A stretch of DNA of 64,000 nt from Gimesia fumaroli (GTDB lineage: Bacteria > Planctomycetota > Planctomycetia > Planctomycetales > Planctomycetaceae): positions 3,757,164-3,821,163 of the forward strand of contig NZ_CP037452.1 of the NCBI RefSeq assembly GCF_007754425.1, in the 5' to 3' direction. The translations under genes and the position numbers were made by a program. This document shows positions 47,762 through 55,917 of the stretch, in pieces. The notes below the pieces were generated by a model. It did no database searches, had not been told where the DNA came from, and was given only the letters and a program-made list of their open reading frames with translations. Every line of letters starts with the position of its first letter. The first letter of the stretch is position 1.

Positions 47762-47838
<77 letters not shown>

Positions 47839-47839
47839 T

Positions 47840-47874
47840 AAAGCCATGACTCACAACGAGTTATGGCTTTTTTT
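47840..47874 (+). terminator. tRNA-Lys terminator on the left (island-supplied) side
   Basis: 8-bp stem AAAGCCAT / ATGGCTTT extended by ACTC / GAGT, then a T run. Matches the terminator after the displaced tRNA end at 49648-49685, with changes in the loop and inner stem. Confidence 0.7.
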
Positions 47875-47929
47875 GTTTGGCTGTTTTGTATCTAATTTAT
47901 GCGATTTTGATTGTGTATCTACTGCGTGC

Positions 47930-47943
47930 TAATCAGTAGGTTC
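47930..47943. repeat. Third partial copy of the att core
   Basis: TAATCAGTAGGTTC repeats 14 bases of the anticodon-arm part of the core, 92 bases inside the left end. It could be a remnant of an earlier integration or excision. Confidence 0.5.
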
Positions 47944-48108
47944 AATCTCTTTTCAGATGCTCTTAATTACTGCGATGGACTTCATCTTTCTATCTGCCAA
48001 ATGCAAAACTCAAACAACAACTATCTGCTCATTCATATATTTTATTCTGGTTTTGAATTCATATAATTTGAAAGACTTATTGCGGACATAATCAGAAAGA
48101 GAACATCA

Positions 48109-49026
48109 ATGCTGAAATACAAAACTTGTTTGTTGTTGGGGGCAGGTGCTAGCCAACATCTTGACTTTCCTCTAGGTTTTAAATTAAAGCAGGATATGCT
48201 TGCTGAGCTTGCAAGATTGAGAAAGCTTTCATCTGAAGATCTGCCAGATGTTTATAAAACAAATGATTTTGATAAAAACAAAATCAATAAGCTATATAAA
48301 GGTTTGCTCTACTCTGACTGTCCTTCTCCTGATGTTTTTTTAGAGAAGAATCCTGAGTACATGAAAATCGGGAAATACTTGATTTGTCTGAAATTAGTCG
48401 AATATGAAATAGAAGATAAATTTATTACACATGCTGGCTGGTATGAACAACTAAGATCAGCACTTAAGGTAGACTCACCTGAAAAACTAAAAGACAACAG
48501 ACTGTCAATAGTTACTTTCAACTATGATAGGTCTCTGGATGCATGGCTTCACCAATATATAGAAAATGAATTCAGACTAAGTTCTGATGAAGCATGGAAG
48601 ATCTTTAATGAATCAATAGAAATTGTTCACGTTCATGGAGTTCTAGGCAAATATCCTGACTTCACATACGGAGATAAAAACAAAATATTCAAACGATCTC
48701 AATCAATCAAAATTGTTTCTGAAGCAGATTCACAACAAGAAGAATTTGAAAAGGCATCTCGCCTTTTGAAAAATTCTGAAAGAGTAATTGTTTTTGGTTT
48801 TGGGTTTGCCACAGAAAACGTTGAGAGACTTGATTATTTTGAAAAGAAAGAGCTTGAAGAAAGAAAGGTTCTTATTGCTGCAGGACCGTTTACAGGAGGA
48901 GCAGCGAGAGATGCTTTAGATGAATGGCTCGGTCAATGGGGACTAATACGAGGAAGACATTTTTATCAAGTAACGGCAAATGAGATATTTAGTTCACATA
49001 GGAATCCTTTTTCCAACACGAACTAA
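48109..49026 (+). CDS. SIR2-like NAD-binding protein, probable defence effector
   Basis: The 305-residue protein has the SIR2 Rossmann features: LLLGAGASQHLDFPLG (GAGAS 11-15), VTFNYDRSLDAWL (137-146), the catalytic-type His in VHVHG (174-176), and VIVFGFGFATENV (226-238). Bacterial stand-alone SIR2-like proteins of this kind are phage-triggered NADases in known defence systems (for example DSR, ThsA and SIR2-HerA); homology to a specific one is not shown here. No membrane segment or extra domain. ATG 48109 with AAAGAGA upstream. The AT-rich codon use suggests recent acquisition. Confidence 0.78.
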   Translation: MLKYKTCLLLGAGASQHLDFPLGFKLKQDMLAELARLRKLSSEDLPDVYKTNDFDKNKINKLYKGLLYSDCPSPDVFLEKNPEYMKIGKYLICLKLVEYEIEDKFITHAGWYEQLRSALKVDSPEKLKDNRLSIVTFNYDRSLDAWLHQYIENEFRLSSDEAWKIFNESIEIVHVHGVLGKYPDFTYGDKNKIFKRSQSIKIVSEADSQQEEFEKASRLLKNSERVIVFGFGFATENVERLDYFEKKELEERKVLIAAGPFTGGAARDALDEWLGQWGLIRGRHFYQVTANEIFSSHRNPFSNTN

Positions 49027-49287
49027 TTTTTAATGAAGAATCACATTAGCATGCGAAAGTAACTCAAATCTGAAGGGCTTAATTTCTTTGACGGATAAAA
49101 TTGTATTCAGTACTTCACAATTCAACATGGGGGCAAAAAGCTCTGGATATGATTGACCTGATAACATTCAACTTCTAACGAATTTGCTATAAATGCTTTA
49201 TATTTATGGTTGATAAATATTCACTAAGTGTTGAGAATGTTTCCATCGTGTTTAGTTCAATAAAAATACATGAATGGAGTAAACAAA

Positions 49288-49497
49288 ATGGAAGTTAGAA
49301 ATGGCGAAATAATTCTTATTGATCCATCTGAAGGTACAGGCGGACAATATCCTATTGGTTTAGATCAATGTGAAACACCAGAAGCGATATTAAGTTTCGT
49401 TCGGCACTTATGTGATAAGCAATGGGTAACCCGAAAACAGATACAATTTTTCGTTAATGCAGCAACCGAACAGCATGGTATAAACATAGATGTATAA
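49288..49497 (+). CDS. Unknown small protein, island cargo
   Basis: The 69-residue soluble protein has beta then helical sequence, with no known family and no Cys. ATG 49288 is preferred over 49270 because GGAG lies 8 bases upstream of 49288. It starts 261 bases after the SIR2-like stop on the same strand. It could be a regulator, antitoxin-like partner or sensor of the SIR2-like effector, but nothing in its sequence proves it. Confidence 0.5.
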   Translation: MEVRNGEIILIDPSEGTGGQYPIGLDQCETPEAILSFVRHLCDKQWVTRKQIQFFVNAATEQHGINIDV

Positions 49498-49519
49498 TGC
49501 TTGTTTTTATCAGTTAAGC

Positions 49520-49557
49520 GTATCTAATTCGTGCCATTTTTTAGAAAAATTAGATAC
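49520..49557. repeat. Inverted repeat GTATCTAATT, candidate arm-type site
   Basis: GTATCTAATT (49520-49529) and AATTAGATAC (49548-49557) form a 10-bp inverted repeat 40-77 bases inside the right att core. The same decamer lies at 47888-47897, 50 bases inside the left end, with a related GTATCTAC at 47915-47922. Repeated short sites near both ends suggest integrase or excisionase arm sites; the inverted pair could alternatively be a terminator after the small gene. Confidence 0.5.
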
Positions 49558-49596
49558 AAGAAGTGCTGTTTTCCAGTTAGAAAACGAATATGTTCG

Positions 49597-49646
49597 CTGA
49601 CTCTTAATCAGTAGGTTCTAGGTTCGATTCCTAGCGGGGGCACTTT
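49597..49646 (+). repeat. attR: displaced 3-prime part of tRNA-Lys
   Basis: Identical 50 bases to 47789-47838 but without a 5-prime half, so not a working tRNA. This is the original chromosomal tRNA end, pushed to the right by integration. The following CAAAGCCATAACTC reads like the tRNA terminator of the ancestral site. Confidence 0.88.
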
Positions 49647-49647
49647 C

Positions 49648-49685
49648 AAAGCCATAACTCAAACCGGGTTATGGCTTTTGTTTTT
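49648..49685 (+). terminator. Ancestral tRNA-Lys terminator, now outside the island
   Basis: 11-bp stem AAAGCCATAAC / GTTATGGCTTT followed by a T-rich run. Shares the stem with 47840-47874. Confidence 0.7.
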
Positions 49686-49758
49686 GGATCAAGGCCGGGA
49701 TCAGCCTGATGTCTGACTCTCGCGCGATCCTGTGGATTTCTGAACGCCCGCATTATTT

Positions 49759-50109
49759 TCATCTCTGAACTTCGGTAACATCCTGCTGAAGAAATTGGTC
49801 TTGATTGCATCGCGTCCTTCGGCATGATGATGCGGAGATAAAGTCGGGCGCGCGAGTGAGCACCTTAGATTCAGTTATCATTTTCAAACCACTGAGAAAA
49901 TCAGCACTATGAAACCCGCTTGTTTCAGCAAGATTTGTCAAACCACTGCTCCCATGCACCTCATTTATCAAACGATATCGCAACGCTTCATTCCGCATTC
50001 CTGGTGCTTCATAAAGACTTCCCAGACGATCACATGTCGTTTGCAAACGAAATATGCGGTTCCACATTGACTCCCCTACGCCATTCACGATGATCTTACT
50101 CACAAACAT
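49759..50109 (-). CDS. Doubtful small gene of 116 residues
   Basis: An open frame starting at ATG 50109 with AAAGAGAT just upstream could give a 116-residue protein (SKIIVNGVGE ... NRIFRLQTTCD). The upstream extension to 50340 has no coding character. No family; low certainty. The remaining stretch to 50544 holds no gene I can support. Confidence 0.25.
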   Translation of the reverse strand: MFVSKIIVNGVGESMWNRIFRLQTTCDRLGSLYEAPGMRNEALRYRLINEVHGSSGLTNLAETSGFHSADFLSGLKMITESKVLTRAPDFISASSCRRTRCNQDQFLQQDVTEVQR

Positions 50110-50544
50110 GATTATCTCTTTCACACATCCAGGCCGAGACCAGCGAGCGGGAACATGACAAATCAACAAACAATACCAGCCCATGATTTCAAACAAAAAA
50201 AGTAGATCGCGGCCCTGGGTGGCCCCTGCCTGGCGATATTCCAATTTACTGATGGATTGGAACCAGCTTACACCAACAATCATGCGCGACGTCCGCCGTC
50301 GTCTGAACGTTTGGCAACAAGCCAAGCTACCGGCAAACAAATCCTATCAGATCTCACCAGCAGCATCAGAGATGAACACGCCTCACCAGACGTGAATAAA
50401 CCGCCCCCGGTAAACATGACCGGCACTGGTGCTTTTGCAATGAACGTGTCAGTGCTGATCGTCGATCACACCGGACCGCGGGAGCAAACTGGCAAAAAAC
50501 ACGGTAGTACCATTCGTCGCTGACACATCCAAACTATTGAGCTT
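50110..50544. other. Gap of 435 bases, no supported gene
   Basis: Overlapping short open frames on both strands (for example 50257-50523, plus) have no start signal or family resemblance. It separates the right end of the island from the operon at 50545-52655. Confidence 0.5.
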
Positions 50545-51117
50545 CTACCCTCGCCATTCGAAAATAGCATCTTCTCTTTTCATTGGTGCGAGTCTTTCAA
50601 TTATTTCCTTTGCTTTGCTCTCGGAAATTAGCGTAGTCCACCCGTTTATGGAGTGGGCAGAAACAGTGTTAGCAATTGAACGTAGCTCCACGAGCATTTC
50701 TCTGGATAGAATGTCAGCAAAACCTGAACAAACAAGGGACACCGCTTCCTTAGCTGTGTCTTGTGTCCACCCCGAACTATCTCCTAGTTCTTCATTTCCT
50801 GCAAATTCGACCGTGCGTTTGAAGATGAAGTCCTGGATGCTTCTGGAATAGTATTCGGCTTCATATGAATCTCGGTAGCACAATACAATATCTGATTCAG
50901 GAAGTGAGTCAGCAAGATAGGCCCAGTAGTGGCCACCTCCTGTGATCGCAAAGGGGGATATTTCAACCTTCTGATCGCCAAGACGTTCGAACGAATCGAT
51001 CTTACCCTCTGGAAGAAATTCTGCATCCCAAATGTCTATGGGATCATCCGAATTCGTTAGTCGATGTAGTAATCCAGTCACCTGAAGCCTGCGATAGTCA
51101 TTAGGCCACTCGATCAT
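50545..51117 (-). CDS. Unknown protein, possibly SUKH-like
   Basis: The 190-residue protein contains PFAITGGGHYWAYL, followed by strands and SIQDFIFKRTVEF, an order that resembles SMI1/KNR4 (SUKH) proteins, where a GxGxxW-type strand precedes a helix F-x-x-F. Identity is weak. No signal peptide. Last gene of a same-strand run of four (50545-52655), beside the SMI1/KNR4 gene. Such proteins are commonly immunity proteins against nuclease toxins (known for SUKH). Confidence 0.5.
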   Translation of the reverse strand: MIEWPNDYRRLQVTGLLHRLTNSDDPIDIWDAEFLPEGKIDSFERLGDQKVEISPFAITGGGHYWAYLADSLPESDIVLCYRDSYEAEYYSRSIQDFIFKRTVEFAGNEELGDSSGWTQDTAKEAVSLVCSGFADILSREMLVELRSIANTVSAHSINGWTTLISESKAKEIIERLAPMKREDAIFEWRG

Positions 51118-51214
51118 AATTCTGCTTTCTGTATGAACTTTCTCGTTTTGCGTAAAAAGGCTTATAAAGGCGGCAGGACACTAGGTTGTAAAATGCTGTC
51201 CCTGTTAAACCATT

Positions 51215-51805
51215 TTAAGAAAAATAAACAGCCCATACGATGGTTGTGCCGATATATGAAGTAACGCAGACGAGTACTGCCAGTGAATATTTTTCGTCTG
51301 CTTTTCCACCTGCAATTCCGACGATCGCTCCCAGTGCTGCTCCGAGTACGAGATACATTGCATAGTTCAATGAAAGATTGCCTGCTACGATTGCTTTGAT
51401 CACATATAGCCCCCAGGCAAGTAGTGGTGGGCCCATCCACAAAAAAATGATCTTCTTCCAAACGGCACTTTCTGTCGTTACTTCTTCAATGTCGACAGGT
51501 TTGTCAGAAATATCCCCTACAAAGAGACAGTAGATCGCAACTCCCCAAAGAAATAAAGCGGTCAAGCCGGTGATAGAAACAACGCCCCACTTACCGAAAA
51601 TGTGATAAAAAAACTGCAGATGCTTATGTAATTTGACTTCGTGATTCAAAGCTTCTTTTGCTGTGATTTCCTCGTATAAGTCCCAGCTTAAATAAGCCAT
51701 TACTCCCCCGACGAGCAGACAAGCTAACGACAGTACAATTCGATTGTCCATGAGCTTAGCCAGCGTGTTTTTTAATTGGGTCGGCCTTTTATCTGTGTTG
51801 GTCAT
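51215..51805 (-). CDS. Unknown membrane protein, about four helices
   Basis: The 196-residue protein has a short basic N-terminus and hydrophobic segments at about 24-44, 74-94, 125-145 and 150-190. No family. AGGTTGAG precedes ATG 51805. Same-strand run with the genes at 50545, 51888 and 52515. Confidence 0.6.
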   Translation of the reverse strand: MTNTDKRPTQLKNTLAKLMDNRIVLSLACLLVGGVMAYLSWDLYEEITAKEALNHEVKLHKHLQFFYHIFGKWGVVSITGLTALFLWGVAIYCLFVGDISDKPVDIEEVTTESAVWKKIIFLWMGPPLLAWGLYVIKAIVAGNLSLNYAMYLVLGAALGAIVGIAGGKADEKYSLAVLVCVTSYIGTTIVWAVYFS

Positions 51806-51887
51806 TACTCAACCTGCGGGAACTTAATGGCTCAGTATTCCTGAAAAGAACGCCCTGCTCCCGATTCCCTGTTACTACCCGGGGCTC

Positions 51888-52502
51888 TTAGTCGGACACT
51901 GTTTTTAAGGGGATGTTTGAAACCGTCATATTCGTAGCCCAGATGTCTTTGCTTTCGGCTCTAATTGAAGTGGAATAGGTGACGGCCCATGCTTCCTTGG
52001 GGATTTTTTGATGTGCAAAGAATGAAATCGTTTCGCCAGTTTCAATAATCACATAATTGGTTGCTCTGTCAGAGCTGAAAGGAGGTCTGCTCCATTGGTC
52101 AATGACTTTTTCTCTTTCAATCTCATTGGGGCCATGGATCTTGGCGACAGTGACAGGAGATGGATTCCAGATGGGAAGCGGGCCTACATTCTCAATCTCA
52201 ACTGTAATCGCATGAATATAATAATTGTCTGACGTATCGTGCACCGTAGCAGTAATCTTTGGTTGTGCGCGCATCGCAAAGGTCCGGCCACGGAAAAAAC
52301 GATAGTAGGAAAAAATGGAGACAATCAACAGAACAACGATGCTGAATATATCGTAAGCTGCACTGATCGAGTCCTTATTTACTGCGAGCCAGTCAGGCCT
52401 GATTAGCTCGTGTTTAATGAGGTTAAAGAATAAGAGAATCAGGATGATCAGAATGAGAACAGCAATGATTTGCGCATGATGCTGACGGGAGAATTTCTTC
52501 AT
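51888..52502 (-). CDS. Unknown membrane-anchored protein with beta-sandwich-like outer part
   Basis: The 204-residue protein has two hydrophobic segments (about 10-29 and 48-66) and then about 135 residues of beta-rich extracytoplasmic or cytoplasmic sequence (TVEIENVGPLPIWNP, NYVIIETGETISFF). This resembles proteins of unknown function with an immunoglobulin-like fold. Starts 12 bases after the stop of the Gly-rich peptide gene. Confidence 0.6.
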   Translation of the reverse strand: MKKFSRQHHAQIIAVLILIILILLFFNLIKHELIRPDWLAVNKDSISAAYDIFSIVVLLIVSIFSYYRFFRGRTFAMRAQPKITATVHDTSDNYYIHAITVEIENVGPLPIWNPSPVTVAKIHGPNEIEREKVIDQWSRPPFSSDRATNYVIIETGETISFFAHQKIPKEAWAVTYSTSIRAESKDIWATNMTVSNIPLKTVSD

Positions 52503-52514
52503 TGAAACGTTCTA

Positions 52515-52655
52515 TTAAAAAAAGAGCCAACCCAATAAAGCGAGAGCAATCACGATGAGCACAATGATCAGATACCCTGATTTTCCTCCAGGCCCCTGTC
52601 CAGAATCTCCGCCAGAGCCGCCTCCTGATCCATAATGGGTTTCGACCATGTGCAT
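52515..52655 (-). CDS. Gly-rich 46-residue peptide with a C-terminal membrane anchor
   Basis: Read directly from the minus strand: MHMVETHYGS, a Gly/Ser-rich stretch with GPGGKSG, and a hydrophobic C-terminal helix YLIIVLIVIALALLGWLFF before TAA. Too short to be found by usual gene finders. A weak site (CTGGAC) lies upstream; a second in-frame ATG is at 52649. Its stop is 12 bases before the next gene start, so it is plausibly the first gene of the four-gene run. Possible tail-anchored peptide; function unknown. Confidence 0.55.
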   Translation of the reverse strand: MHMVETHYGSGGGSGGDSGQGPGGKSGYLIIVLIVIALALLGWLFF

Positions 52656-52871
52656 GTCCAGAAGAAATAAAATTATCACGTCTCTGATTCCTTTCTCTTG
52701 CCTCGGATAAGTAGGAGGATTTTTCCCAGTCTACACTCTGTGACAGCGTTATCAATGTCCGTTCGCTGAAATAAATTGCACTTTCAAATTAGTGAAGTAG
52801 TAACTAAGTGGCAGGAAAATATTATTAGAAACCTGCGCAATCCTATTTGTCACGGTGATGCAATCATCTCC

Positions 52872-53333
52872 TTACGAGATGATCTTCTGCAGAAATTCGA
52901 CAAAGTTTGCGGCGAAGTCAGACCAGACCAGGGGCAGGTCTTCCGGCTCCTCGGAATATTCGTGATTCCAGAATAAGACCGGGTACTCTCCGTTAGAGTC
53001 TGCTTTCTGTAAATCGTAACAGAAATAACTTCCGCCCCAGTCGTTGGCGAATGGCATTACCGGGCCTTGCGCCATGCTTTCCAGTTCGGGGCGCATCTCG
53101 GTGACGTGCCATTCCAGACTCATATGATCTGATTCGCCTACACCAAACAGCCGGGCATAGCCAACTTCGCCCCCATTGCCCTGCAGCAGAAATTCGCGAT
53201 GGCTTAAGGGAAACCGAAAGTTGTGTTTTTTCTCAAACGCATCGATGGCTTTTACGGTGGCCGGTGGAGACAAGTTCGTGTCTTCATGTGCCAGTACCGC
53301 AGCTAGAATCTTCTCGTTTAATGCGCCCATCAT
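52872..53333 (-). CDS. SMI1/KNR4 (SUKH) family protein
   Basis: The 153-residue protein shows the SUKH pattern: ATVKAIDAFEKKHNFRFPLS, HREFLLQGNGGEVGYARLFG, PFANDWGGSYFCYDL and VWSDFAANFVEFLQK. SUKH proteins are commonly immunity proteins to polymorphic toxins or parts of conflict systems. Start is ATG 53333 or 53330; AAGGGGACC precedes it. It lies beside the trypsin/glycosyltransferase gene; functional link is possible but unproven. Confidence 0.82.
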   Translation of the reverse strand: MMGALNEKILAAVLAHEDTNLSPPATVKAIDAFEKKHNFRFPLSHREFLLQGNGGEVGYARLFGVGESDHMSLEWHVTEMRPELESMAQGPVMPFANDWGGSYFCYDLQKADSNGEYPVLFWNHEYSEEPEDLPLVWSDFAANFVEFLQKIIS

Positions 53334-53474
53334 TGGTCCCCTTACCTGAATTTAAAAGTGTGCATGGAGATCGTGGAATAATCTCATATTATAATCCTGC
53401 CCAGCTTGGTGTAAAAAGAATTGTATTTTATGCCAACGATAAATGTGTCAGCATGAAGGGGTAGCGACGTTTCA

Positions 53475-55139
53475 TTATTGATTCTTATCTTCCCCAGGCT
53501 TTGAATAACTGGGGAGAATTGGTTTCACATAGTGTGTTGTCAGTCTGATTGGGATGAAGAAGATTCGGGCAAGGTTTTCCAGGCAGATCAGCACGTCCAT
53601 CCAAAGGGTGGCATGTTCTATGTAGAACCGGTCGATCAAAAACTTGTTTCTGATCTCTTCAAGTCCCATGACCCAGGGGAGATAAGACGAGGCTAATCCC
53701 ACAATCCCCGGCTTGATTCGGGTCCGGGTTTCGTAGTCCGGAATACTTTTACAAAAGACATCAATAAATTCAGGACGCTCCGGGCTCGGACCGACGAGCG
53801 ACATTTCACCGCGGAGGACGTTAAACAGTTGGGGAAGTTCATCGAGAGACGTTCTGCGCAGGAAATATCCTACGGATGTCACTCGGGGGTCCCTTTGAAT
53901 CGCCCAGACTGGCCCCGTTGCAGCTTCTGCATCAGCGTGCATCGTTCTTAGTTTATACATCGTGAAATTGCGACCGTCTTTTCCGACTCTGGTTTGACGG
54001 AACAACGCCGGACCGGGGGAAGTTAGCCGAACCGCCAAGATCCCGATTATGATAAGCGGTGCCAGCAGAACCAGGAGTATTGCGGCCAGAATCTGATCGA
54101 AGGGACCCTTCCAGCGCAAGTAACGAGAGACTTGAACTCCGGTTGTGAAGTTCTGTTGTGTTTCCGGTGAGGGAATGCTGGCACGCACGACACCATGTTC
54201 TGCCAGCGTGCCTTCATTGATTACCGATACGATGGTTGATGCTGCATCATCGGCCTTTTCAGAGATTACACGGAAGCCGATAATGGTACTCCCTTTGCGG
54301 ATATAGCTGACTTTTAAGATGACTCCCGGGAACCCCTGCATGAATTCAATCAGTTGTTGATAATAGAATGTGTCTTCATCTGAGAAATCGCCATAGTCTG
54401 CATTGACTTCGACTTCAATCAAAGCGCCTTGTTGTTCCGTGTCTGTCGCAACCATGGTCAGAGTCGTTCTGTTGTCCTGTGGCTGTGACACGAGAGGCTC
54501 CTCCATCTCGGACTCCGCTTCCCCATCGCTCTGGGCAGAAGGCATTACCTTAAATATCCGATTCAGTTCCTGGCTGGGAATCATATAGCCGACTTTTCCG
54601 CGCACACGCGCGACGATCCCATACATCTTTTGTCCGTTAATGGAAAGGAGCGGTGTCCCGCTGAAGCCTGGTTCCAGAATTGTGGAGGCGTTTTCGTTCT
54701 GTTCCAGTTGAAAGCGATTACTCCGCACGGGCAAGGAGACGAGACCACTCCACCAGATTCCCAGTGTTGAGCCTTGCGGAAGTCCATAAGCGCGAATCGG
54801 TTCATTAATCCGCGGAATAGAAAATTGCGAGTGGTCAATGTCGACGCTGGTTGGGGCATCCAGTCCCAGTAAGACCACATCTTCATTGTCACCCGAGTCT
54901 AGTGGGGGAAGCCATTTCAAAATCGTAGCCCAGGCAACCGGTTCTTGAGCATCAAGGATAAACCGGACGCAGATTTTGGCGTTCGGCCGGGACTGATCGT
55001 CGGCATCGCGGTCCAGCGCGTAGTTGATAATATGAGCGCAGGTGATAACGTGGCTTGCATCAACAACAACCCCCATACCAACGAGGGGGGCTGCCTTGCT
55101 ACTGGAAATACTGACAACAGGGGGAACCTTATTTCTCAT
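53475..55139 (-). CDS. Trypsin-like protease fused to a PglC/WcaJ-type phosphoglycosyl transferase
   Basis: A single 554-residue frame. Residues 1-195 are a trypsin-like protease with complete triad: TCAHI (His36), EDVVLL (Asp87) and GFSGTPL (Ser160). Residues 225-325 are a beta-alpha-beta-like unit ([34 protein letters not shown]) of unknown type. From 345 comes the bacterial sugar transferase core: one membrane segment (351-371), [22 protein letters not shown] and [12 protein letters not shown] (Asp433-Glu434 dyad). The usual VGPRPE reads VGPSPE (449-454). ATG 55139 lies inside the Trypco1-like stop region (11-base overlap), so the pair is coupled. There is no signal peptide, so the protease faces the cytoplasm. 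Confidence 0.85.
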
Positions 55140-55458
55140 TGCTTGCTTTTGTCTGTCCCTTCCAGGTGAGGGAGACCTTAAAATTTGCTTCTGTGGAGAC
55201 GCTGGCAAACACAACATTTCCGTCTAGCGATAGATTGACACCGACTTCCAGGGTCATTTCATCTGTTCCTGTCCCCTGCATTGCGGAGACCGCTGCATCG
55301 GCCAGGGGGCGAATTTTTGTGAGCATCGTTTCCAGAGTTGTTGTCGATTTTTCAATCAGCGTTTTGGTTCCGGCACGATGCTCTCGAGACTCTGGTTGAC
55401 GCACTTCAACCAGAATAGAATCCCCTGCTGCTGTCGGAATCTCAAGAATTTGCGTCAT
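55129..55458 (-). CDS. Trypco1-like (CU044_2847 family) protein
   Basis: The 109-residue protein, ILEIPTAAGDSILVEVRQP then VGVNLSLDGNVVFAS near the C-terminus, fits the small trypsin-co-occurring domain 1 (Trypco1), in which a beta-sheet of this type accompanies trypsin-like proteins in predicted conflict systems (from memory). ATG 55458 is chosen over the longer frame to 55539. It overlaps the protease-transferase gene by 11 bases, so the proteins are probably made together. Confidence 0.75.
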   Translation of the reverse strand: MTQILEIPTAAGDSILVEVRQPESREHRAGTKTLIEKSTTTLETMLTKIRPLADAAVSAMQGTGTDEMTLEVGVNLSLDGNVVFASVSTEANFKVSLTWKGQTKASNEK

Positions 55459-55917
55459 AGTTGTTTTCTCGCAGTTGATTAGGACGACGATTGAATCTGA
55501 ATCCCGACGCACTTGTGAATCTGCCTCAGGCCCCTGCAACAGTCACGGTCACTTAACTGCTTTCATGGGACACGATGAAAGCACTAAAATGATATGTGAT
55601 GAACAGTATGCCAGTTAGTTATGCTTGTGTCAAACAAACGCCTTTTTTCTGACAGCTTCGAGAGTGGATGCAGATTGCGAATTTCCGAAATCTCACATTT
55701 TCCTCCTGATTCAGAATTGCCAGCATCAATAAAATAATGTTGGAATGCGGTAATGTCTTTTCTGAAGCCGGTTCGGTGCGCAGGAAGAATCCCGTGCTGT
55801 CAAAACTAGTCAGGCGTGCCTCTTATTTCCTGATCAACTCGGGTCTGCTCTCGCTGTTGAGCGTCGAGCTTCTAATTGCGTTTGAACGTTGTTGCGAGGT
55901 AGGCGAGAAAAAGAGAG
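55459..55917. other. Gap of 459 bases, no gene seen
   Basis: No coding frame with start signals on either strand. Divergent promoter region for the Trypco1-like gene (minus) and the DUF2905 gene (plus). Confidence 0.5.

Follow-up and report, generated by a model that had tools for sequence, protein, structure and literature searches.

The window, by which we mean the whole stretch of 64,000 nucleotides of Gimesia fumaroli DNA that was analysed, carries on its minus strand two genes of which the second starts 11 bases before the stop of the first. The first gene (55129-55458) codes for a protein of 109 aa, and the second (53475-55139, below called P0001) for one of 554 aa, in which a trypsin-like protease, an orphan unit and a degenerate monotopic phosphoglycosyl transferase (PGT) are fused. 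The original prediction had seen the overlap, which the coordinates confirm, and had called the first gene Trypco1-like. With a match to Pfam PF19493 at E 4e-20 (72.6 bits, where 24.6 is the cut-off), and to the NCBIfam CU044_2847 family (NF041216) at E 4.6e-16, it is as far as its sequence tells a true Trypco1, and a Trypco1 gene thus stands directly beside a gene with a trypsin domain. Ahead of it on the same strand lies a promoter-like site (55605-55633), with TTGACA and, 17 bases on, CATACT, and a TG before the second hexamer; it comes from a consensus scan only, and the scan gave 12 sites in the region against a mean of 3.3 in shuffled sequences.

Protease, middle unit and transferase had also been predicted to make up one frame of 554 residues, and this holds good, since the frame is uninterrupted and Pfam matches are found in it. 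A frame check of 53475-55139 on the minus strand gives 554 codons and zero interruptions, with 23 and 28 stops in the other frames of that strand and 12, 23 and 29 in those of the opposite one, and the residues that had been named (H36, D87, S160 and D433-E434) are correct on inspection of the protein. The GC content at the third codon position is similar throughout (0.55 in the trypsin part, 0.52 in the middle and 0.58 in the PGT part), and all three parts show the codon-position GC of coding sequence, which makes it unlikely that two genes have been joined by a frame error, the outcome that the prediction had named as its refutation. Against the PADLOC models the fusion gave weak matches only, the best to Avs2 at E 0.013, and the Trypco1 product gave none.

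The variable island

The pair lies in a variable island of about 8 kb (47881-55914), with a tRNA-Lys(CTT) gene identified by ARAGORN at its left edge (47762-47835, plus strand). Neither the island nor the tRNA-Lys site had been noticed in the original prediction, and nor had the altered PGT motifs described below. In genome G016 the island is absent and about 217 bases are found in its place, and in the sister genome G001, where a neighbouring gene is 99% identical, the corresponding tRNA-Lys site is taken up by other genes, about 3.9 kb in all. Nothing in this cargo was recognised as defence, and the tRNA-Lys site alone is therefore no proof of a defence island. The cargo (L094 1656-5582) includes a gene whose start reads prepilin-like, GFTLIELLV.

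Several other genes share the island. A second tRNA-Lys(CTT) copy is found at 49571-49641, along with a 91-base direct repeat (window 47762-49687), and the SIR2-like gene between the two copies (48109-49026; PF13289 at E 6e-5, just under the cut-off) has a GC content of 35%, against 50% for the window, and is probably a small separate insertion. Downstream of the fusion there is a SUKH-1 (SMI1/KNR4) gene (52872-53333, E 1.2e-18), which has its own promoter-like site (53415-53388). Further downstream come two membrane-like proteins with no family over the cut-off (51888-52502 and 51215-51805) and a protein of 190 aa whose SUKH match stays below the threshold (50545-51117).

The three parts of the fusion

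The trypsin-like domain spans aa 1-205 (54525-55139, minus strand, as for all parts below), with Pfam Trypsin_2 (PF13365) matching at aa 21-174 (E 5.7e-8, 34.1 bits over a cut-off of 27.6). The serine protease triad had been read as intact and it is: H36, D87 and S160 are all present, and the same residues stand in each of 35 trypsin domains that were aligned, out of 49 found in proteins linked to Trypco1. An HMM built on six such trypsins, with P0001 left out, matches the domain at E 2.9e-28, and judged by these comparisons it is a member of the family that accompanies Trypco1. In the AlphaFold2 model, 10-residue blocks have a mean pLDDT of 72-96 over aa 1-200, and the fold resembles that of the HtrA-type proteases (AlgW, 7co5_B; VIA Z 18.8, rmsd 2.5, 167 residues).

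Next comes an alpha+beta unit of about 110 residues (aa 226-335; 54135-54464), which had been described as unknown and remains an orphan in our searches. Pfam gave no match at a limit of E 10 (filters drop most matches above about 0.1), NCBIfam none at a limit of E 1, and the PDB sequences a single one at chance level (E 0.78). No match was accepted in plasmids, in 392 planctomycete genomes or in 297 genomes from the phylum to which a Desulfobacterales genome belongs, and a search of 25 of the 54 Trypco1 genomes was empty, which by itself shows little. Two candidate homologues were rejected, namely L037 (E 0.003), which falls in a frame reading as an aminoacyl-tRNA synthetase gene, and L152 (E 0.006), which is on the opposite strand to genes that read as respiratory-complex genes. 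The model, of low confidence, has a helix-strand-strand-helix at 254-309 (AlphaFold2, pLDDT about 57-67), preceded by two doubtful strands (aa 226-244, with a pLDDT below 50). At the edges of the unit, residues 205-251 and 325-339 are modelled with low confidence and may be flexible. A likeness between its GS-hairpin and the adaptor units of STAND/CHAT proteins found no support and was not used.

The C-terminal part had been named a PglC/WcaJ-type transferase with a DE dyad at 433-434, a description that stands. A monotopic PGT (Bac_transf) domain covers aa 346-526 (53562-54104; PF02397 at E 3e-55) and has PDB matches to WbaP and PglC-type chains, and the catalytic Asp433-Glu434 dyad (53838-53843) is retained, being DE in 71 of 71 relatives. 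These 71 distinct relatives, two from the own genome and 69 from the phylum, were taken from the best matches to P0001; being the closest hits within a single phylum, they do not stand for enzymes that have been characterised. EPS_sugtrans, WcaJ and EpsB_2 are the nearest NCBIfam models, all matched under the whole-protein cut-offs and with the C-terminal part of the models only. A re-entrant membrane helix is predicted from hydropathy at aa 345-373 (54021-54107), where the model has a helix at 335-373, and D348 and P361 form the D-x12-P motif described in passages of PMC12802240.

Several residues of the active site are kept and others are lost. K396, R398, R428, D433 and E434 are present in columns that are invariant in all 71 relatives, and the stabilising Asp is present as D515. 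K396 and R428 are paired with K59 and R88 of PglC by motif position, and together with D93-E94 the equivalents of these residues are retained. In place of GPRP there is GPSP (aa 450-453; 53781-53792), with Ser at R452, which is Arg in 71/71 relatives, and in place of TGxAQ there is VGLAS (aa 480-484; 53688-53702), with Val at T480, which is Thr in 70 relatives and Ser in the remaining one, and Ser at Q484, which is Gln in all 71. The PRP arginine is found also in five WbaP chains among the aligned matches listed, and both it and the Gln are present in the two other PGT genes of the own genome. Passages of PMC6441080 describe the PRP motif as strictly conserved and involved in substrate binding, and those of PMC12802240 name K59, R88 and R111 of PglC as substrate-orienting; Arg112, once proposed to contact uracil according to a passage of PMC12550135, is taken to be the same PRP arginine as R111. 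Like the monotopic PGTs PglC, WbaP, WcaJ and EpsZ, P0001 thus has the Bac_transf fold, the D-x12-P helix, the Asp-Glu dyad and the K59/R88 equivalents, and unlike them it is without the PRP Arg (Ser452) and the Thr and Gln of TGxxQ (Val480 and Ser484).

When each row was left out in turn and compared at the columns invariant in all other rows, P0001 deviated at 3 out of 29 (452, 484 and 522), L001 at 2 out of 28, L035 at 1 out of 27, and the remaining 69 relatives at none. With a looser threshold of 97% P0001 and L001 tie at 4 deviations, and with 90% L001 has 8 and P0001 has 4, the same as four other rows. The contrast fades as the threshold is loosened, and what sets P0001 apart is therefore loss at the strictest sites and not a general divergence. 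Sequencing error was rejected as the source of the altered residues, because at least one, two and two base changes would be needed; the AlphaFold2 confidence around them is low (pLDDT blocks of 48-62 over aa 451-510). Since the dyad and two of the three substrate-orienting residues remain and one is lost, a pseudo-enzyme and a changed ligand are both possible, and PGT catalysis in P0001 is doubtful.

A maximum-likelihood tree groups the PGT with six planctomycete PGTs of the same class, with a support of 98/79 that narrowly misses what the tool counts as good, and gives it a branch length of 1.99 against a median of 0.45; the tool warns that the placement of long branches is unsure. Three of these six were inspected, and each sits in a cluster of exopolysaccharide type, where the neighbours read as genes for chain length, ABC export or glycosyltransferase-like proteins. 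Unlike the case of monotopic PGTs, no polysaccharide-type genes were recognised beside P0001, and unlike in the large PGTs an N-terminal trypsin replaces the TM bundle and the PF13727 domain. From the tree and from its rarity, the fusion looks to have been made within Planctomycetia, where a conflict-type protease would have been joined to a local PGT.

Trypco1 loci and the search for a second fusion

With patterns from an alignment of our own, a scan of the genome collection gave 54 Trypco1 loci, mostly from Streptomyces. A trypsin-nSTAND1 fusion, recognised by HMMs built in this analysis, comes after the Trypco1 gene in 48 of the 54, adjoining it except in L147, where it lies about 0.9 kb beyond it. 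For most of the Streptomyces loci the STAND protein is some 1,450 residues long. In L126 a trypsin frame without an nSTAND1 match stands beside Trypco1. The HMM search found no trypsin in five of the 54 loci (L101, L102, L143, L146 and L149); three of them (L143, L146 and L149) lie on short contigs, and L101 and L149 yet have an nSTAND1 frame. Streptomyces plasmids too have trypsin-nSTAND1, and in two cases propeller-type matches (Pfam) fall in that protein or in the one after it; the partner in Nostoc is a trypsin-TIR-AAA_35 protein (Pfam). Trypco1 is rare in the phylum, being found in 4 of 392 Planctomycetota genomes and in 1 of 17 in the genus; in the planctomycete G259 the trypsin is joined by an NPHP3_N-like NTPase region that scores just below the Pfam cut-off, and in G056 an AAA_5 (MoxR-like) gene comes after that of the trypsin protein (Pfam). 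The search of the own genome for nSTAND1 gave five weak matches, one of them just at the cut-off. A PGT profile, validated by its matches to the PGTs in control loci, matched none of 63 Trypco1 loci (54 from the scan, 6 from plasmids and 3 from planctomycetes), and that of P0001 is the sole Trypco1 locus with a PGT in this survey.

The prediction was to be checked by a search for the same architecture. The pair of Trypco1 and trypsin recurs, and no second trypsin-PGT fusion came up in the searches made. Among the matches listed from the 392 Planctomycetota genomes, a sample of the phylum, all those outside the own genome are to the PGT region and none starts before residue 307. The frames surrounding 31 PGT relatives were scanned with the trypsin HMM, for which P0001 was the positive control, and gave no such domain. 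In plasmids, the search with aa 1-329 gave trypsin-region matches only (best 20 of 27 records), phages gave PGT-region matches only (best 20 of 41 records), and an insensitive scan of the genome collection with six exact 8-residue patterns from aa 1-329 gave nothing. Viral contigs gave no match by protein search or with the Ser-variant pattern, and two ordinary PGT loci with the Arg pattern. Titles, abstract openings and passages of the open-access literature, to which the search was confined, contained no description of a trypsin-PGT fusion. The fusion is seen in a single genome among those searched, so there is no conservation to support it.

What the fused transferase may do

That trypsin together with Trypco1 marks predicted conflict systems had been part of the original prediction, and passages of PMC7159879 and PMC10907252 agree; our pair fits the family. 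By the matches given above, Trypco1 and trypsin are true family members. As in the Trypco1-trypsin conflict proteins of Kaur et al. 2020 (PMC7159879), with which we compared also the NCBIfam CU044_2847 proteins beside trypsin-nSTAND1-WD40-like ones, the small Trypco1 gene comes first and the trypsin second, which is the order in most relatives, the triad is kept, and the plasmid or variable-region location of the relatives has its counterpart in the variable island. The slot behind the trypsin is different. It usually holds nSTAND1 or another NTPase, and instead of nSTAND1/WD40-like, NACHT-like, TIR-AAA_35 or other partners, P0001 has the orphan alpha+beta unit and the degenerate monotopic PGT. 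The C-terminal domain is Bac_transf and not one of the sensor or switch partners (VMAP with MoxR-vWA, iSTAND or nSTAND1), and unlike in the known systems no MoxR/vWA was identified beside the pair, as the six neighbours that were scanned with Pfam gave no AAA, MoxR, vWA or STAND match. P0001 is a PGT by fold and a Trypco1-trypsin module by gene pair, and lacks a tested feature of each, the PRP Arg (and TGxxQ) of the former and the STAND or MoxR partner of the latter.

Because trypsin-nSTAND1 is found in 48 of the 54 Trypco1 loci, the PGT occupies what is a slot for sensing or oligomerisation, and by position it looks like an input rather than an output. The explanation that we prefer, tentatively and with slightly less than even confidence, is that the pair is a two-gene Trypco1-trypsin conflict module, in which the degenerate PGT would be a membrane-anchored platform for sensing or clustering that activates the protease; the module is probably anti-phage. 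The re-entrant helix would pin the fusion to the cytoplasmic face of the inner membrane, and the PGT fold would no longer initiate polysaccharides and may still bind ligands of the polyprenol phosphate/UDP-sugar type, or partner proteins. If an infection altered these ligands or partners the fusion could cluster or be reshaped, which would switch on the trypsin, and the active protease might then cut itself in the flexible linkers and/or cut Trypco1 or other proteins of the cell, with arrest or death of the infected cell as the result. The loss of conserved PGT residues suggests the conversion of an old enzyme of the cell surface into a trigger. Everything beyond the anatomy, including sensing, clustering and cleavage, is what we infer.

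Comparable designs have been described. The nearest one that has been tested is HamMAB, in which a trypsin is fused to 'dHamA', and according to passages of PMC12799240 there is no toxicity without dHamA and potent toxicity with a dimeriser instead, and dHamA is proposed to oligomerise its protease. Passages of PMC7159879 mention conflict systems that include kinase domains with disrupted catalytic residues as well as glycosyltransferase domains, and also the EACC1 system, which has a similar layout of two genes and for its C-terminus a choice of up to 50 domains; WbaP is active as a homodimer (passages of PMC10942596 and PMC12802240). These cases, together with a PGT in the position of sensor-type NTPases, are why we favour a trypsin switched by a clustering pseudo-PGT. 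The likeness is in each case partial. The nuclease-protease pairs of Hachiman, AVAST and Lamassu share with P0001 an upstream partner gene and a trypsin fused N-terminally to a module (passages of PMC12799240), but unlike in the HamM/Avs1a type the upstream gene is by Pfam a Trypco1 and not an MBL-fold nuclease, and the module is a membrane PGT and not HamA, Avs1 or LmuA. With EACC1 it shares a small constant 5' gene, a 3' gene with an N-terminal peptidase and a variable C-terminal domain, and a link to the membrane (as passages of PMC7159879 have it), but the peptidase is a trypsin and not a caspase, Pfam naming Trypco1 and Trypsin_2, and the membrane link is through the PGT and not through a TM domain EACC1.

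It is possible, although to us doubtful, that the pseudo-PGT reads the pool of undecaprenyl phosphate and UDP-sugar, or a phage attack on it, and activates the protease from there, so that a membrane enzyme that initiates polysaccharides would have become an immune sensor, of a class that in bacteria does without a STAND NTPase.

The original prediction had proposed that activation of the protease could release or switch a lipid-carrier glycosyl transferase, which would then have to be active. A working PGT, maybe with another donor, could when freed or switched by the trypsin drain or mislabel the lipid carrier, so that envelope synthesis would be stopped or the phage blocked. Asp433-Glu434, K396, R398 and R428 are kept as in 71 of 71 relatives, and with the dyad and the K59/R88 equivalents in place the domain may have some catalysis left or a new substrate. 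The low-confidence regions on either side of the middle unit (205-251 and 325-339), which may be flexible, also speak for this reading, and glycosyltransferase families, at least three of them, are proposed as modifying effectors in conflict systems (passages of PMC7159879). The idea is nevertheless weakened, and we hold it to be unlikely, as the PRP Arg, strictly conserved and engaged in substrate binding (passages of PMC6441080), is lost along with the Gln and the Thr, which are invariant or nearly so in the 71 relatives. PGT catalysis being doubtful makes an effector role less likely, and in the relatives the slot of the trypsin partner holds mostly sensor-type NTPases, nSTAND1 in 48 of 54.

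The PGT domain could also be an integrated decoy, mimicking an initiating PGT of the host that a phage would bind or modify so as to alter the cell surface, with the captured phage factor as the trigger of the trypsin, but we know of no phage factor that targets a PGT. Its grouping with planctomycete PGTs (98/79), its place in the sensor slot, the matches to the fusion in 41 phage records, of which the best 20 are all in the PGT part, and the decoy interactions proposed for these systems in passages of PMC7159879 would all agree with this; a decoy has no need to lose active-site residues, and we regard it as quite improbable. Equally improbable is that the fusion is an evolutionary accident, in which a PGT gene came by chance to lie behind a mobile trypsin gene and is drifting or serves as a mere membrane anchor, since the single genome, the long PGT branch, the losses at invariant sites and the variable island, which speak for it, are met by 554 codons without stop or frameshift, coding-like codon-position GC throughout, and membrane and dyad motifs left intact, a pattern more selective than free decay.

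Should the reading of the PGT as a clustering trigger be true, the sensor slot of Trypco1-trypsin modules can hold a degenerate enzyme of envelope biosynthesis, and such modules could monitor the lipid carrier, or a PGT of the host, instead of detecting the phage by way of an NTPase. The role of Trypco1 would also be easier to test, because the large STAND protein is here reduced to a fusion of 554 residues; in the open-access literature, where two papers use the word Trypco1, we found no published test of any such system. An idea that Trypco1 is a cystatin-like inhibitor of the trypsin, from a strand-strand-helix-strand-strand pattern, was dropped because the model of Trypco1 is of low confidence (mean pLDDT 57.6).

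Some minor observations concern Trypco1 at other loci. Trypco1 with trypsin-nSTAND1 behind it recurs with striking constancy (L096-L149, mostly Streptomyces), plasmids included. Three Trypco1 genes had no trypsin beside them in our searches: those of the Desulfobacterales bacterium HSG16 (L143 516-965) and of Candidatus Electrothrix marina (L146 2662-2991), both on short contigs, and that of the planctomycete G079 (L043 6939-7737). In the last of these the Trypco1 gene overlaps a 152-aa gene, with no Pfam match, that reads IDTGADISLVTP. We take this stretch to resemble the active-site motif of retropepsin-type aspartic proteases, and at this locus Trypco1 may be paired with another class of protease.
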